From: Gammaproteobacteria bacterium
Lineage (GTDB): Bacteria; Pseudomonadota; Gammaproteobacteria; GCA-002705445; GCA-002716945
Direction: 5' to 3'
Length of the DNA: 64,000 bases
NCBI GenBank assembly: GCA_016779485.1
Contig: JADHNN010000004.1
Location: forward strand, 1 to 64,000
Shown: positions 4,916-14,627 of the stretch, piece after piece
Position numbering within the stretch: position 1 is the first letter of the stretch
How the letters are laid out: each line of letters begins with the position of its first letter
Position numbers and translations under genes: made by a program
Notes under the pieces: generated by a model
The model's input: the letters and a program-made list of their open reading frames with translations, nothing else
Databases searched by the model: none
Told to the model about the DNA's origin: nothing

Positions 4916-5770
4916 ATGTTTGCATTATCAATAATTATTTTAGCTCTGACCATAGAATATTTTTACGATGATATAAAAAAGTTTAGGGACAATAGCATTA
5001 TCATTAATATATTTACTTTATATCAGGATAAATTCAGCAACGTTAACTTCATTGAAAAAAATACTTATCCAGCTTTCTTAATATTATTTCTACTCATAAG
5101 TATGATTATTATGACTTTCGTTAATTCGATATCTTCAGTTATTTTTTTTATTGTTTCAATATTGATAGTTTTGTATTGCCTAAGGACAAATCAGTATAAT
5201 AGGGATATCGAAGAGCTTAAGATTAAATTAGAATTTAATAAGGATGAAATTGATAAAAGTCTGTTATCTAAGTTATGTCCTAATCTAAAACAAACTCGAA
5301 TAAAATCTAATTTAAATAATTTAATAATTCAGAATTTATTTTTCAATTCTATTGCAAATACTTTTAGTATTTTATTTTATTTCTTACTCATAGGTCCAGC
5401 AGCTATTCTTACTTATACTGTATTAAATACTATGATTTATTCAGATAAGTTTAAAATAACAGCAAAAGTGAGACAAGAATTAAAAAAATATATGTACTTC
5501 ATTGATTATATTCCAGTGCGACTAACTTCATATACATTCTCAGTCATAAGTAACTACGATAATGTTATTGAAAAAATAAACAACTTAAAATTATCTAATA
5601 ATAATTACCTAAGTAATATAGAATTTATCAATCAAGTAGGTGGTTCAGTTTATGATAGTGAACTGAAGGAATCTGAACAAATAATACAAATTCAAAATAT
5701 TTTAGCAAGGACATTAATAGCTTGGGTTAGCGCTATCACTCTACTTTCTATTGCTGGTATCCTTGTTTAA
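4916..5770 (+). CDS. ampE: AmpE-like inner-membrane protein
   Basis: This 284-aa polytopic protein sits directly after ampD (TAA followed at once by ATG), the classical ampDE arrangement. It shows hydrophobic spans at the N-terminus ([16 protein letters not shown]), around residues 55-75, near 80-92, around 150-175 and at the C-terminal end. AmpE is described as an inner-membrane signalling partner related to the CobD/CbiB fold; its biochemical role is unclear. The call rests on position, topology and N-terminal resemblance. Its last 30 nt overlap convergent queH. Confidence 0.85.
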
Positions 5771-6400
5771 TTTAGAGTAGAACTTAATTCCAATTTCTAC
5801 ATCAGGACGATTATTTTTATTTCTCCATATATTTGTATCTCTTAGGGAATAGACGCAACCACAGTATTCTTGCATGTAAAACTCTTCATTTTTAGATACA
5901 TTGATCATGTTTTCTGAACCTTTATTCTTACGCCAATTAAAAGTCCAATAATCAATATTTTTAAAACTTGATGTAGCTCTTACTCCTGATTCATTAATTT
6001 GATTCATATTTTTCCATCTCGATATTCCAAGTGTACTTGAGATTAACCTGAAGTTATTACTATCGGCATACTGTGCTGTTTTATAAAATCTCATGTCAAA
6101 ACATGTTGTACATCTTTTTCCTCTCTCTGGCTCCCACTCTTGTCCTTTTGTTAAGTCAAACCAGTTGTGTGTATCATAGTCATCATCTATAAATGGAATA
6201 TTATGTTTCTTAGCAAACTCTAAGTTTTCCTCTTTTCTCAATAAATATTCTCTCTTAGGATGTATATTAGGATTATAAAAATATATCGTATAATCTATAT
6301 CTGACTCTTTTAATCTCAACATAATGTCTCCAGAGCATGGGGCGCAACAGCTATGCAATAGAAGTTTAGAGTGGCCGTCAGGTAATTTAAGCTTATTCAT
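5741..6400 (-). CDS. queH: Epoxyqueuosine reductase QueH
   Basis: QueH (DUF208) carries out the last step of tRNA queuosine synthesis, epoxyqueuosine to queuosine, and is non-homologous to QueG. The 219-aa protein has the diagnostic cysteine motifs HSCCAPCSG (residues 16-24), RCTTCFDMR in mid-protein and YCGCVYS near the C-terminus, plus [13 protein letters not shown]. These cysteines bind an Fe-S cluster and a second metal in the family. It overlaps ampE at the 3' end and is followed 2 bp upstream by tatD in the same orientation. Confidence 0.93.
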
Positions 6401-10322: not shown

Positions 10323-11237
10323 ATGACTAAATACGCACTTGAAATAAACCAACTTAATAAAACATACAAAAATGGTGTTACCGCTTTAAAAAATATTAAT
10401 TTAAACGTTGAAGACGGCGACATATTTGCCTTTCTTGGCCCTAATGGAGCAGGAAAATCCACTGTTATAGGCATAATTACGACACTTGTGAATATTACGT
10501 CTGGAAGTGTACAAGTTTACGGAAAAGACATAGCTAAGTATCCGGAGTTCACCAAACATATGATTGGAGTAGTGCCGCAAGAATATAATTTGGACCAATT
10601 CATACCAATTATAGAAACAATGATTAACATTGGAGGATACTTTGGATTATCAAAAAAACAGGCATTAAAAAAAACACAAGAGTTATTTGAGGACTTGGGC
10701 ATTTGGCATAAAAGAAAGTCGACACCAAGAGAATTATCTGGAGGGATGAAAAGAAGACTAATGATTGCTAGAGCTCTTATTCATAACCCAAAACTGCTTA
10801 TACTAGATGAACCAACTGCTGGAGTAGATACGGAATTACGATTAACAATGTGGGATTTTTTTAAAAAAATAAATCATGATGGCGTTACGATCATTTTAAC
10901 AACACACTATCTAGAGGAAGCAGAACGATTATGTAAAAATCTTGCAATTATTCATCATGGTGAAGTAGTAAAAAGTTCGCCGATGTCGGATGTAATATCA
11001 TCAACTAGAAAACATACTTATATTATAAGAGCGGACTCAAATATTACGGATAAAAATATATTTAAGGATAATATCCATATTGTTGATGATAAAACATGTG
11101 AACTTACAGTTGATAATAAAATATCAATAACAGAAATAATTAACCACTTTAATGATAATAATATTAAAGTTATTGATATTTTAAGTAAAAGAAATAAGCT
11201 TGAGGAGCTTTTCATAGAACTTACTCAAACAAAATGA
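10323..11237 (+). CDS. ABC-2 type transporter ATP-binding protein (YadG-like)
   Basis: The 304-aa ATPase has a Walker A GPNGAGKST near residue 40, a Q-loop around GVVPQEY, the signature LSGGMKRRLMIARAL and Walker B LLILDEPTAGVD, followed by the switch His in TTHYLEEAERL. A C-terminal extension of about 80 residues follows the core, as in exporter ATPases of the DrrA/YadG type. It overlaps the permease gene by 4 nt. The substrate cannot be read from sequence. The 116-bp gap to divergent mcl should carry its promoter. Confidence 0.93.
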   Translation: MTKYALEINQLNKTYKNGVTALKNINLNVEDGDIFAFLGPNGAGKSTVIGIITTLVNITSGSVQVYGKDIAKYPEFTKHMIGVVPQEYNLDQFIPIIETMINIGGYFGLSKKQALKKTQELFEDLGIWHKRKSTPRELSGGMKRRLMIARALIHNPKLLILDEPTAGVDTELRLTMWDFFKKINHDGVTIILTTHYLEEAERLCKNLAIIHHGEVVKSSPMSDVISSTRKHTYIIRADSNITDKNIFKDNIHIVDDKTCELTVDNKISITEIINHFNDNNIKVIDILSKRNKLEELFIELTQTK

Positions 11238-12004
11238 ATAATTTATATCTAATACAAATTCTAACTATATTTAAAAAAGAATTTGCTCGTTGGTCAAGAA
11301 TATGGATTCAAACCATCTTACCTTCTGTAATAACAATGTTTTTATATATTACAATATTTGGAAATTTTATTGGAGAACGCATAGGAGAAATTAGTGGCCT
11401 GCCATACATACATTTCATTATTCCTGGTTTGATAATCATGCCTATTATCTCAAATTCATACATGAATGTAGTAGGTTCATTTTATAGTGGAAGATTTCAA
11501 AAAAGTATTGAAGAATTATTTGTTTCACCACTCTCTAGTCATATAATTTTAATCGGATATGTTCTCGGTGGTGTATCTAGAGCATTTGTAGTTGGGTTTG
11601 TTGTATATATTGTATCACTAAGCTTTACCACCATACCTATACACAATGTAGCGCTAGCTTTATTTCTAACTCTATTAATAAGTTTTTTATTCTCAATACT
11701 AGGATTTATAAATGCAGTGTATGCTAAAAGTTTTGATGGTATCAATATAATTCCAACTTTCGTTCTTACACCTCTTACTTATTTAGGAGGAACATTTTAC
11801 TCTATATACAATCTCCCAGAAGTATGGCAAACAGTTTCTATTTTCAATCCAATTGCATATATGGTTAGTGCTTATCGATATGCATTCATTGGCGTTGAGG
11901 AAATGAATACTTATACTGCTATATTAATGATGTTTATTTTAATATTTGTATTGTATTCTTTAGCTATATATTTACTCAATAAAGGTATTGGTGTAAAAAA
12001 TTAA
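11234..12004 (+). CDS. ABC-2 type transporter permease (YadH-like)
   Basis: This 256-aa inner-membrane protein has about six hydrophobic spans, beginning with TILPSVITMFLYITIFGNFIG. It has the YadH-like segments LPYIHFIIPGLIIMPII and FQKSIEELFVSPLS, and ends with a span and a short basic tail. With the upstream ATPase it would form a homodimeric export complex. The stop codon lies at the very edge of the cobalamin riboswitch, but that element reads into btuB downstream; nothing suggests these two genes are B12-regulated. Confidence 0.9.
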   Translation: MNNLYLIQILTIFKKEFARWSRIWIQTILPSVITMFLYITIFGNFIGERIGEISGLPYIHFIIPGLIIMPIISNSYMNVVGSFYSGRFQKSIEELFVSPLSSHIILIGYVLGGVSRAFVVGFVVYIVSLSFTTIPIHNVALALFLTLLISFLFSILGFINAVYAKSFDGINIIPTFVLTPLTYLGGTFYSIYNLPEVWQTVSIFNPIAYMVSAYRYAFIGVEEMNTYTAILMMFILIFVLYSLAIYLLNKGIGVKN

Positions 12005-12120
12005 CTCTCACGAGGTTGGGAAAGTCAGTGAATGCATAATCTGACACTGCCCCCGCAACGGTGAACAACAGTCCGAATGCCAACGAGGTGAGACCAACAT
12101 TAGCGGCGGTGCTATGAAAA
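12005..12120 (+). promoter_or_regulatory. Cobalamin riboswitch, short class-II-like aptamer
   Basis: The core CTGCCCCCGCAACGGTGA (from 12047) and GTCCGAATGCC (12071-12081) are hallmark B12 aptamer sequences. TCTCACGAGGTTGG (12006-12019) pairs with CCAACGAGGTGAGA (12080-12093), closing the junction. A downstream hairpin, CATTAGC-GGCGGT-GCTATG (12098-12116), presents a GCGG loop that can pair with CCGC in the core, which would be the L5-L13 kissing interaction. The compact layout, with no long peripheral arms, resembles class II (env8-type) cobalamin riboswitches. It lies upstream of btuB and would switch that gene off when B12 is plentiful. Confidence 0.92.
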
Positions 12121-12339
12121 TAATCTTAATCATATAAAAATATAAACTATTACTTTTTGAGAATTACTGTTATGCGTTATGCATAACTGTGATGCCCGTA
12201 TGTAATAAATAATAATTTTCATAAATGATGTTCCGAGATATCTATATGTGTTGTTGCATCTAAATGCAGAAAATATTTGTATCAAGCTACACAGAAAGAA
12301 TAGTTTTAAAAAAAATTTTAAATTAATTAACTTATTAAT
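12121..12339 (+). promoter_or_regulatory. btuB leader downstream of the aptamer (expression platform region)
   Basis: About 220 nt separate the aptamer from the btuB start. The stretch is AT-rich and holds one clear hairpin at 12169-12187, GTTATGC-GTTAT-GCATAAC, with no T-run after it. I see no intrinsic terminator and no strong Shine-Dalgarno sequence before the ATG. How the switch works, at transcription or translation, cannot be decided by eye. No ORF of note is present. Confidence 0.5.
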
Positions 12340-14112
12340 ATGAATACTATGAATTTTAAAAAAATTTTATTATTAAATATATTACTTATCTCTTTCACAT
12401 TCTCGAATGCAGGTGAAACTTTAAATCCAATTGTAGTAAGTAATTCTATCTCACCGATAGATCTTCACTCATCTCCTGCATCAATGGAGGTTTTCACTGC
12501 TTTAGATATTGAAGAAAGAGGTTTTGCAAACTTACAAGAGTTATTGGGATCAATCAGCTCTATAAATATAAGCAGTACAGGTGGAGTTGGACAATTGACT
12601 TCTGTTTTCACCAGAGGTACTGAGAGTAATCATACAAAAATTATATTAGATGGTGTTGAACTTAATCCAGGTACACTTGGCCTCGCGCCAATTCAAAACA
12701 TTTCAATTAATTCTATTGATAAAGTAGAAATTATAAAAGGTTCCTCGTCAGCTCTTCATGGAGCAAATACTATTGGTGGAATTATTAATATTAAAACAAA
12801 GGAAAATTTGAATTCTATTTCAATATCATCGGGGTCATGGTCAACTAATACAGCATCATTCACAAATAGTTTTGATAGAAATGGATTAAAAATAAATATT
12901 AATGCTAATAGTAATGAGTCGAAATCAATACCCGCTAAAGTCATGTCTTCACGAAGGCACTCTTATAATACAGAAAATATAGCGATAGGGTTAAGCAAGG
13001 AATTAAATGATTATGTGTTTACATCTAGATTATATAGTTCTAGAGGAAATACTCAGTATGATAACTACAATAGCTCAGTTGTGCTTAATCAAGATCATGA
13101 TGATTACTACTATACTTTAGGACTTAAAAAGTTTGTTAATAATGATATTATTGAAATGGTTTATAAAGGTTCTCAAAATAGAATCATTCAAGCAGCAATT
13201 GGTGCTACTGATTTTACAGATACTCTCAGAGATATATATGACTTCTCTTATACAAGTGTAGGAGTTAACCTAATACAAAAGGCTGGAGTAATTTATACAA
13301 AAGAACATATGAGTGAACTCTCGTATGGTAGTCGTTTCACGGTTCAAACAAATAATAAAGAATATTATTATCAAAGTGAGTTATCACACTCATCCTATCT
13401 TATTAATTATGGAGCAAGACATATTGATCATTCTCAATTTGGACATTTTACAACTGGAAATTTTGGACTCTCTATTCTGTCTGCAAATGATGTATATTCT
13501 TTTAATATTACGAGGTCTCTAAGGCCTGCAGATGCAACAGATCTATACTCAGAGTGGAGTGGTATTCCTACACTTGAACCTGAAGAATCATTTTCTTATG
13601 AGTTTGGTGTAAAGAGATATGTTAATGAAAATACTTTTATTCGTGGTACTGCATTTAAAACAACAATTAAAAACTTAATTGAAGCAGATAGCCTTTCTCA
13701 AGTATACATATCAGATTCTGAGGTAACTGGATTAGAGCTTAGGTTTCAGTCAATACTAAATCTAATTGAGTATGATATTGGTTACACATACATGGTGCCA
13801 AAAGATACAAAAAACAATCAGCCTCTTATAAACCGAAGTAAACATAAGCTTAATGCAGATTTAATATATACTATTGATCTAAGCAGTACCCTACGGGTTA
13901 ATATTTTGGCAGAAGGAACGAAAAAAGCTTCACCATACGGCGATATTAATTTAGGGTCATATTATATTGCTAATTTGAACTATAAATATAATTTTGATCA
14001 CAGTTCTATCAATTTTAGTATGAAAAATATTTTTGATAGACCATATAGGACCTCTCATAATTTTAATACTCTTGATAGATCGTTCTTTGCTACCTATTCT
14101 TTTAATTATTGA
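12340..14112 (+). CDS. btuB: TonB-dependent outer-membrane vitamin B12 receptor (BtuB-like)
   Basis: The 590-aa precursor has a signal peptide (KILLLNILLISFTFSNA), a TonB-box-like NPIVVSN segment near residue 28 and a plug domain with FTRGTESNHTKIILDGVEL and IEIIKGSSSALHGANTIGGI-type motifs. A 22-stranded barrel follows and ends in an aromatic residue (FFATYSFNY). These plug motifs match BtuB. The cobalamin riboswitch directly upstream is strong independent support for cobalamin as substrate. An internal ATG three codons downstream (12349) is an alternative start. The next gene begins about 20 bp downstream and likely shares the transcript. Confidence 0.9.
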   Translation: MNTMNFKKILLLNILLISFTFSNAGETLNPIVVSNSISPIDLHSSPASMEVFTALDIEERGFANLQELLGSISSINISSTGGVGQLTSVFTRGTESNHTKIILDGVELNPGTLGLAPIQNISINSIDKVEIIKGSSSALHGANTIGGIINIKTKENLNSISISSGSWSTNTASFTNSFDRNGLKININANSNESKSIPAKVMSSRRHSYNTENIAIGLSKELNDYVFTSRLYSSRGNTQYDNYNSSVVLNQDHDDYYYTLGLKKFVNNDIIEMVYKGSQNRIIQAAIGATDFTDTLRDIYDFSYTSVGVNLIQKAGVIYTKEHMSELSYGSRFTVQTNNKEYYYQSELSHSSYLINYGARHIDHSQFGHFTTGNFGLSILSANDVYSFNITRSLRPADATDLYSEWSGIPTLEPEESFSYEFGVKRYVNENTFIRGTAFKTTIKNLIEADSLSQVYISDSEVTGLELRFQSILNLIEYDIGYTYMVPKDTKNNQPLINRSKHKLNADLIYTIDLSSTLRVNILAEGTKKASPYGDINLGSYYIANLNYKYNFDHSSINFSMKNIFDRPYRTSHNFNTLDRSFFATYSFNY

Positions 14113-14129
14113 TATTATATAACCTGATA

Positions 14130-14627
14130 ATGAAAAAAATATCATATATAAGTTTATCGGTATTAGTGATACTCCTAGCAAGTAAGTTATCTTCTAGTTT
14201 TACAAATGTATCACCTTTTATTGCAACTATTATATTTTCAGTTTATTTGTTAAAAGATAAATATCATTTATTATTTATGATTTTTATCTCACAAGCTCTA
14301 TCCGATATAATTTATGGAACTCATATATCAAATATATTTGTGTACTTCTCATATGCTCTTATTGTTTTATTTTTATATAAGAGTAAAAAAGAAATCAATT
14401 TACTTAATAGCCTAGTTTCTTCTATATATGTCAATGGAATCTTTTTTACAGCAAGCAACTTAGGCCATTATGTTTTCTTTAGTGAATCTTATACAATTGC
14501 GGCACTACTTATGAGTTATGTTAAAGCTGTTCCTTTAGGATGGAACCTGATGCTTTCAACTTTTTTATTTATATTTATTTATCACATATTACTAGCCGTT
14601 AATAAAAAGCGGCTAGTAAAAGCATAG
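14130..14627 (+). CDS. DUF6580-like integral membrane protein, candidate B12 transporter component
   Basis: About 165 aa with roughly five hydrophobic spans. Elements resembling DUF6580/ECF S-component-like proteins are TNVSPFIATIIF near the N-terminus, SQALSDIIYGTHISNIFVYFSY, TASNLGHYVF and YVKAVPLGWNLM. I chose ATG 14130 (MKKISYISL) rather than 14109. The function is unknown; its place right after btuB under a cobalamin riboswitch suggests a role in moving cobalamin or a precursor across the inner membrane. No ATPase partner is adjacent. An 8-9 bp inverted repeat (TACTAGCCG/CGGCTAGTA) lies inside the last codons. Confidence 0.7.
   Translation: MKKISYISLSVLVILLASKLSSSFTNVSPFIATIIFSVYLLKDKYHLLFMIFISQALSDIIYGTHISNIFVYFSYALIVLFLYKSKKEINLLNSLVSSIYVNGIFFTASNLGHYVFFSESYTIAALLMSYVKAVPLGWNLMLSTFLFIFIYHILLAVNKKRLVKA
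14589..14619. terminator. Inverted repeat between the DUF6580 gene and nrdB, weak terminator candidate
   Basis: TTACTAGCCG and CGGCTAGTAA can form a perfect 10-bp stem with an 11-nt loop. It lies at the 3' ends of two convergent genes, which is a usual site for a bidirectional terminator, and overlaps the DUF6580 coding end. Neither strand has a clean T-run after the stem, so its strength as an intrinsic terminator is doubtful. Confidence 0.4.

Follow-up and report, generated by a model that had tools for sequence, protein, structure and literature searches.

After its passage through BtuB, cobalamin is imported across the inner membrane of E. coli by BtuCDF, an ABC importer with a FecCD-type permease. 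Other described importers are built on S-components or S-component-like proteins. For CbrT, a role as B12 S-component was predicted from gene context and subsequently demonstrated; structure 6FNP is that of ECF-CbrT from Lactobacillus delbrueckii, and CbrT on its own, with no ECF module, gives no uptake in E. coli (PMC5997447). BtuM, a solitary S-component-like protein, supports B12 uptake in E. coli with no ECF module (PMC6072759). Here, we compare these systems with a locus from a tiny free-living gammaproteobacterium, in which a cobalamin riboswitch and a btuB-like gene are followed by the gene of a DUF6580 membrane protein, a family of which we found no mention in the literature searched.

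The riboswitch and the btuB-like receptor gene

The window, by which we mean the whole 64-kb stretch of DNA analysed, belongs to a 912-kb genome that is 90% complete. A preliminary description of this DNA had proposed a cobalamin riboswitch with a kissing loop that controls a btuB gene and a DUF6580-like gene, and our searches bear out the riboswitch, the gene pair and its coordinates. The gene set consists of the riboswitch, the btuB-like gene and the DUF6580 gene, and convergent nrdBA genes close the unit. The features referred to below are:

5741-6400 of the window: QueH, recognised by reading the sequence by eye
10323..12004, + strand: ABC-2 ATPase and permease pair, YadG/YadH-like (PRK15066, 336 bits; ABC_tran)
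12002..12090, + strand: AdoCbl-II (class II cobalamin) riboswitch aptamer (RF01689)
about 12101..12114, + strand: expression-platform hairpin L13 (its presence and its loop-loop pairs were counted across 20 genomes)
12114..12137, + strand: leader open reading frame of 7 codons, MKIILII and stop (seven-genome alignment)
12340..14112, + strand: btuB-like gene for a TonB-dependent cobalamin receptor, 590 aa (TIGR01779, PF07715, PDB match)
14130..14627, + strand: gene for a DUF6580 membrane protein, 165 aa (PF20221), the proposed solitary S-component-like B12 importer

The only Rfam match across the 64-kb window is RF01689, the AdoCbl-II riboswitch, at 12002-12090 on the + strand, which scores 52.2 bits (gathering score 36.5) with an E-value of 7.9e-10. 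A SECIS_3 candidate at 12039 scored far under its gathering threshold and was disregarded. Loop L5 of the aptamer is the C-rich CCCGC at 12052-12056 (CCCGC or CCCGU within the order), and opposite it lies the G-rich loop of the L13 hairpin just 3' of the aptamer. The two loops are complementary in the 20 sequences from the order, in which three pairs of the kissing contact are invariant and one varies between C-G (14), U-G (2) and U-A (4), so that this contact shows some covariation. The L13 loop overlaps a sequence resembling a ribosome-binding site. In one genome of the order (G021, locus L034) the riboswitch was missed by the search, yet the motif can be discerned by eye upstream of btuB; here the L13 loop reads ACGGGAGG and includes GGAGG, which resembles a Shine-Dalgarno sequence and lies about 9 nt ahead of the start of btuB; this suggests that binding of B12 shuts off translation by docking L5 onto the ribosome site.

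The 5' end of the riboswitch coincides with the stop codon of the ABC-2 permease gene, and the promoter would therefore have to be located within the ABC genes or ahead of them. An alignment of seven genomes of the genus shows that the aptamer and the L13 hairpin are near-invariant and that the DNA 3' of both diverges fast. Directly 3' of the hairpin, the MKIILII open reading frame is kept throughout the genus and the differences in its codons 4-6 are synonymous; conservation drops right after it, and the roughly 200 bases up to btuB are poorly conserved. In this genus, the leader open reading frame and, by coupling or Rho-dependent termination, btuB may both be targets of the switch.

Among families, the receptor is matched best by TIGR01779 (195.8 bits, E 1.2e-57), and as this score stays below the equivalog cut-off of 599.7 bits, we refer to the protein as BtuB-like. 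Its plug domain is matched by PF07715 with 80.3 bits, and among PDB entries the structures of E. coli BtuB match it best, at 102 bits versus 54 for the next receptor.

Gene order was compared in 25 genomes of the order, all from one family and 0.7-1.2 Mb in size. DUF6580 is present as a single copy in 21 of them and the AdoCbl-II riboswitch in 20, and the 11 high-quality genomes all have the riboswitch, btuB and DUF6580 once, joined in conserved synteny. Nearly all of the 20 loci read share the arrangement malyl-CoA-lyase-like gene, ABC-2 pair, riboswitch, btuB, DUF6580, nrdBA. In two genomes of one genus, a gene for a 529-aa radical SAM protein is inserted between btuB and DUF6580 (L025:6932-8521 and L035:1891-3480); the copy scanned (L128, from the same genome as L025) has a B12-binding domain. 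A YadGH-like ABC-2 pair also adjoins DUF6580, convergently, in other Gammaproteobacteria (L212-L214, L216, L217, L219, L224 and L088).

The ABC-2 pair might be thought to energise DUF6580 as an improvised ECF-like module, since in the order it lies immediately upstream of the riboswitch, on the same strand and in conserved synteny, and since it neighbours DUF6580 in several other Gammaproteobacteria. Outside the order, however, the pair is convergent instead of co-directional, and it is missing from most DUF6580 loci elsewhere; moreover, ABC-2 permeases are typically exporters and share no kinship with EcfT. We therefore regard such a role as very improbable, and the pair is probably a syntenic neighbour outside the uptake unit.

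DUF6580 and the inner-membrane step

The window protein matches PF20221 (DUF6580) with 56.9 bits against a gathering cut-off of 27. Within the family, the genus of the window represents one of the most divergent branches: it scores 56 bits, compared with values that mostly exceed 100 in sister genera. The preliminary description had guessed that the protein might be a solitary ECF-type S-component and had asked for profile searches of the 165-aa protein; these confirmed the DUF6580 assignment, whereas the curated ECF S-component profiles gave no match to the window protein. At the level of the family, a profile of 89 proteins had a single sequence match in the PDB, namely CbrT (6FNP chain A, E 2.3e-4); this match came from the profile of alignment A3 alone, CbrT being missed by the A4 profile. 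Aligning a second DUF6580 alignment to the CbrT stretch with hhalign gave an E-value of 1.9e-5 and a probability of 78. CbrT itself belongs to the ECF families PF12822 and PF07155 according to a profile search, and each of these is matched weakly by three DUF6580 members (for PF12822 3 of 64, best E-value 1.1e-4).

The predicted structures point the same way. AlphaFold2 gives confident models for the window protein (pLDDT 92.1, pTM 0.85) and for a DUF6580 protein from Levybacteria (pLDDT 94.5), and both have the six-helix S-component fold. With both models, S-components rank best in Foldseek (FolT, RibU, ThiT, 4huq_S), with probabilities of up to 0.99-1.00 and TM-scores of about 0.5-0.66 but E-values of only 0.1-1; 6FNP is absent among the matches listed. 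Taking profile matches and predicted folds together, we read DUF6580 as remote but real kin of the ECF S-components. Because CbrT fails without its ECF module, kinship with CbrT is by itself no proof of solitary transport.

These bacteria were also searched for other inner-membrane transporters. As the preliminary description had stated, the open reading frames of the 64-kb window include no btuC, btuD or btuF. A complete btuCDF set elsewhere in the genome, together with a lack of co-occurrence of the family with B12 riboswitches, had been named as what would refute an importer role of DUF6580; no FecCD permease, the family of BtuC, was found in the 912-kb genome even at E<=10, in a search that was positive in 14 of 14 reference genomes, and none of the 25 genomes of the order has FecCD above the cut-off. 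The same holds for CbiQ/EcfT (PF02361, 0 of 25). Since EcfT is missing, DUF6580 does not appear to be part of an ECF transporter, and the guess of a solitary S-component is supported by the CbrT match, the structural ranking and the EcfT search. It is not a BtuM either, because the cysteine of BtuM is essential and the window protein has none; no cysteine is invariant among the 89 family members. Invariant residues of DUF6580 are Asn26, Asp59, Asn110 and Pro135.

In a sample of 369 gammaproteobacterial genomes, DUF6580 is present in 57 and absent from 312. Full-length FecCD proteins (E<1e-20) occur in 196 of the 369, that is in 2 of the 57 genomes with DUF6580 versus 194 of the 312 without it; the Fisher p-value of 2e-18 overstates this separation, since kinship among the genomes breaks their independence and since FecCD permeases serve siderophores too. 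This strong mutual exclusion is expected of a replacement transporter, as are the solo riboswitch-DUF6580 units found elsewhere, and both argue against the idea that DUF6580 has an accessory or cobalamin-handling role in the membrane while cobalamin is imported through another unrecognised transporter, such as a BacA-type ABC protein or BtuM. That idea draws on the ability of BtuM to modify its own substrate (PMC6072759) and on cobalamin import by BacA in mycobacteria (PMC10960864); we consider it improbable.

Regarding the use of the vitamin, searches with PF02310, PF02867 and QueG found no B12-dependent enzyme in the window's genome at its completeness of 90%. Its sole PF02310 match is weak and is an IMPDH and not a B12-binding protein. 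NrdJ was not found there, and the one NrdA per genome is the only ribonucleotide reductase. Full-length QueG was found in genome G018 alone and hence not in that of the window. QueH, for which a gene was read in the window, is a B12-independent alternative to QueG. Some relatives have B12-binding radical SAM proteins. The window's genome has a conserved B12 uptake unit, yet no MetH- or MCM-type B12-binding domain, NrdJ or QueG was found in it.

DUF6580 loci in other bacteria and on phage contigs

A survey for co-occurrence of DUF6580 with cobalamin riboswitches had been suggested beforehand, and it strongly supports the link. Outside the order, 36 of the 52 DUF6580 genomes of the class carry an RF00174 riboswitch, and in 17 of the 52 a cobalamin riboswitch is found no more than 5 kb from DUF6580, against about 0.25 expected (computed with a rough total of 122 Mb). 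Its neighbours in these genomes are BtuB, a PduO-type adenosyltransferase (215 bits in the profile search) and, in some, MetH. At least 574 relatives from many phyla turned up when GTDB species genomes were scanned. A cobalamin-class riboswitch lies within the locus in 28 of 40 loci scanned, which come mostly from other phyla and were picked, non-randomly, for long flanks; in L223, L228, L238, L258 and L282 it stands directly upstream of DUF6580. Beyond riboswitches, the family adjoins btuB, pduO, metH and nrdJ. No DUF6580 gene was found in the plasmids of PLSDB.

The loci of Levybacteria (Patescibacteria; L222 and L282) have the order nrdR, nrdJ, AdoCbl-II riboswitch, DUF6580, pduO and contain no btuB, and their NrdJ proteins match TIGR02504 above the cut-off (559 and 590 bits). 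This arrangement mirrors nrdJ-cbrS-cbrT-pduO of L. delbrueckii (PMC5997447). These loci also bear on the question of whether DUF6580 might import not cobalamin but a different compound of the pathway, for instance cobinamide, cobalt or a lower-ligand base. Cobalt transporters are likewise found under B12 riboswitches (PMC2667541), and cobinamide is also taken by CbrT (PMC5997447) and bound by BtuM (PMC6072759). In Levybacteria, however, nrdJ and pduO are the only partners of DUF6580, while in the window it is joined by a BtuB-like receptor, a protein that delivers corrinoids whole, and the nearest relative of DUF6580 in the PDB, CbrT, binds cobalamin. A different substrate thus seems unlikely to us, and we continue to favour cobalamin.

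In Lysobacteraceae/Xanthomonadaceae, DUF6580 was seen directly beside pduO (L259, L272 and L290); a 2009 listing gives Xanthomonas as a B12 user without BtuFCD. In Gemmata (L258:5635-8288), a cobalamin riboswitch is followed by DUF6580 and a gene for a PF01497 periplasmic binding protein, which possibly works together with DUF6580.

DUF6580 was also found on 70 contigs of IMG/VR (L142-L211). Bacterial contamination was considered and rejected for the contigs checked, as DUF6580 has phage genes as neighbours: a terminase and a RecA/UvsX-like gene (L144), a tail sheath gene (L156), a major head protein gene (L147), and DnaB and UvsX genes (L184 and L181). A BtuB-like receptor gene adjoins DUF6580 in 18 of the 70 loci, and each of the four receptors scanned has the B12 receptor family as its top match (140-214 bits). 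An AdoCbl-II riboswitch was detected in 3 of 14 phage loci scanned, with 71.7-80.7 bits. These three DUF6580 cassettes with riboswitch, from marine T4-like phages, are:

L144:4797-7360
L146:3034-5555
L199:5001-7365

Marine T4-like phage contigs thus apparently carry B12-regulated cassettes that are predicted to serve B12 uptake. If functional, they would represent a vitamin uptake route and its regulator that viruses acquired together. Two other phage loci with a BtuB-like gene and DUF6580 contain glutamine riboswitches (L167:2674-2721 and L171:2669-2716). DUF6580 was found neither in the annotated phage genomes of INPHARED nor in PHROGs, and no report of a DUF6580-btuB phage cassette was found in the literature searched.

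Proposed function and comparison with known systems

We propose that the locus of the window is a B12-repressible corrinoid uptake operon in which DUF6580 replaces BtuCDF as a solitary S-component-like importer. We consider this reading likely; in it, we infer the substrate, the transport, the lack of an energising partner and the direction of switching. Counting against it are the failure to find a B12-dependent enzyme in the genome, the dependence of CbrT on its ECF module, the high Foldseek E-values, the missing CbrT match with alignment A4 and the divergence of the window's genus. At low intracellular cobalamin, the kissing contact between L5 and L13 would be open and the ribosome site free, so that btuB and DUF6580 are produced. 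The TonB-powered BtuB-like receptor would then move cobalamin through the outer membrane, and DUF6580, with its six-helix S-component fold, would alone carry it through the inner membrane in place of BtuCDF. The drive of such a solitary protein could be metabolic trapping, for example by adenosylation, PduO being a neighbour elsewhere.

Judged from genes and genomes, the computational case for a putative B12-importer role is strong across the family, and the initial suggestion that DUF6580 is a candidate inner-membrane B12 transporter is supported as a prediction. A broader reading, which we hold somewhat more probable than its opposite, is that DUF6580 represents a widespread further class of B12 importer, solitary, cysteine-independent and with an S-component fold, in B12 users of many phyla that lack BtuCDF, and that marine T4-like phages carry riboswitch-controlled DUF6580-btuB cassettes which raise the B12 uptake of infected cells. 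DUF6580 is thus a concrete candidate for part of the gap of missing B12 transporters, and whether it is an importer can be tested with the existing E. coli assay.

Compared with the known systems, the outer-membrane half of the unit resembles the standard one, BtuB under an AdoCbl riboswitch. There, the riboswitch is the long RF00174 form, whereas the unit of the window has a small class II riboswitch and a receptor that scores below the curated BtuB cut-off. For the inner membrane, DUF6580 would perform the same step as BtuCDF of E. coli, but no permease of the FecCD type is found above the cut-off in the order, and in the class such permeases and DUF6580 are nearly exclusive. With CbrT, DUF6580 shares the S-component fold; the two belong to different Pfam families and are remote homologues, and CbrT requires an ECF module, whereas the DUF6580 genomes of the order have no EcfT above the cut-off. 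In its proposed function, DUF6580 would work like BtuM of Thiobacillus denitrificans, which is, as proposed for DUF6580, a small solitary B12 importer of the S-component type in a Gram-negative bacterium with no ECF module (PMC6072759). BtuM differs in its invariant and essential Cys80, for which DUF6580 has no counterpart, neither in the window protein nor as an invariant residue of the family.
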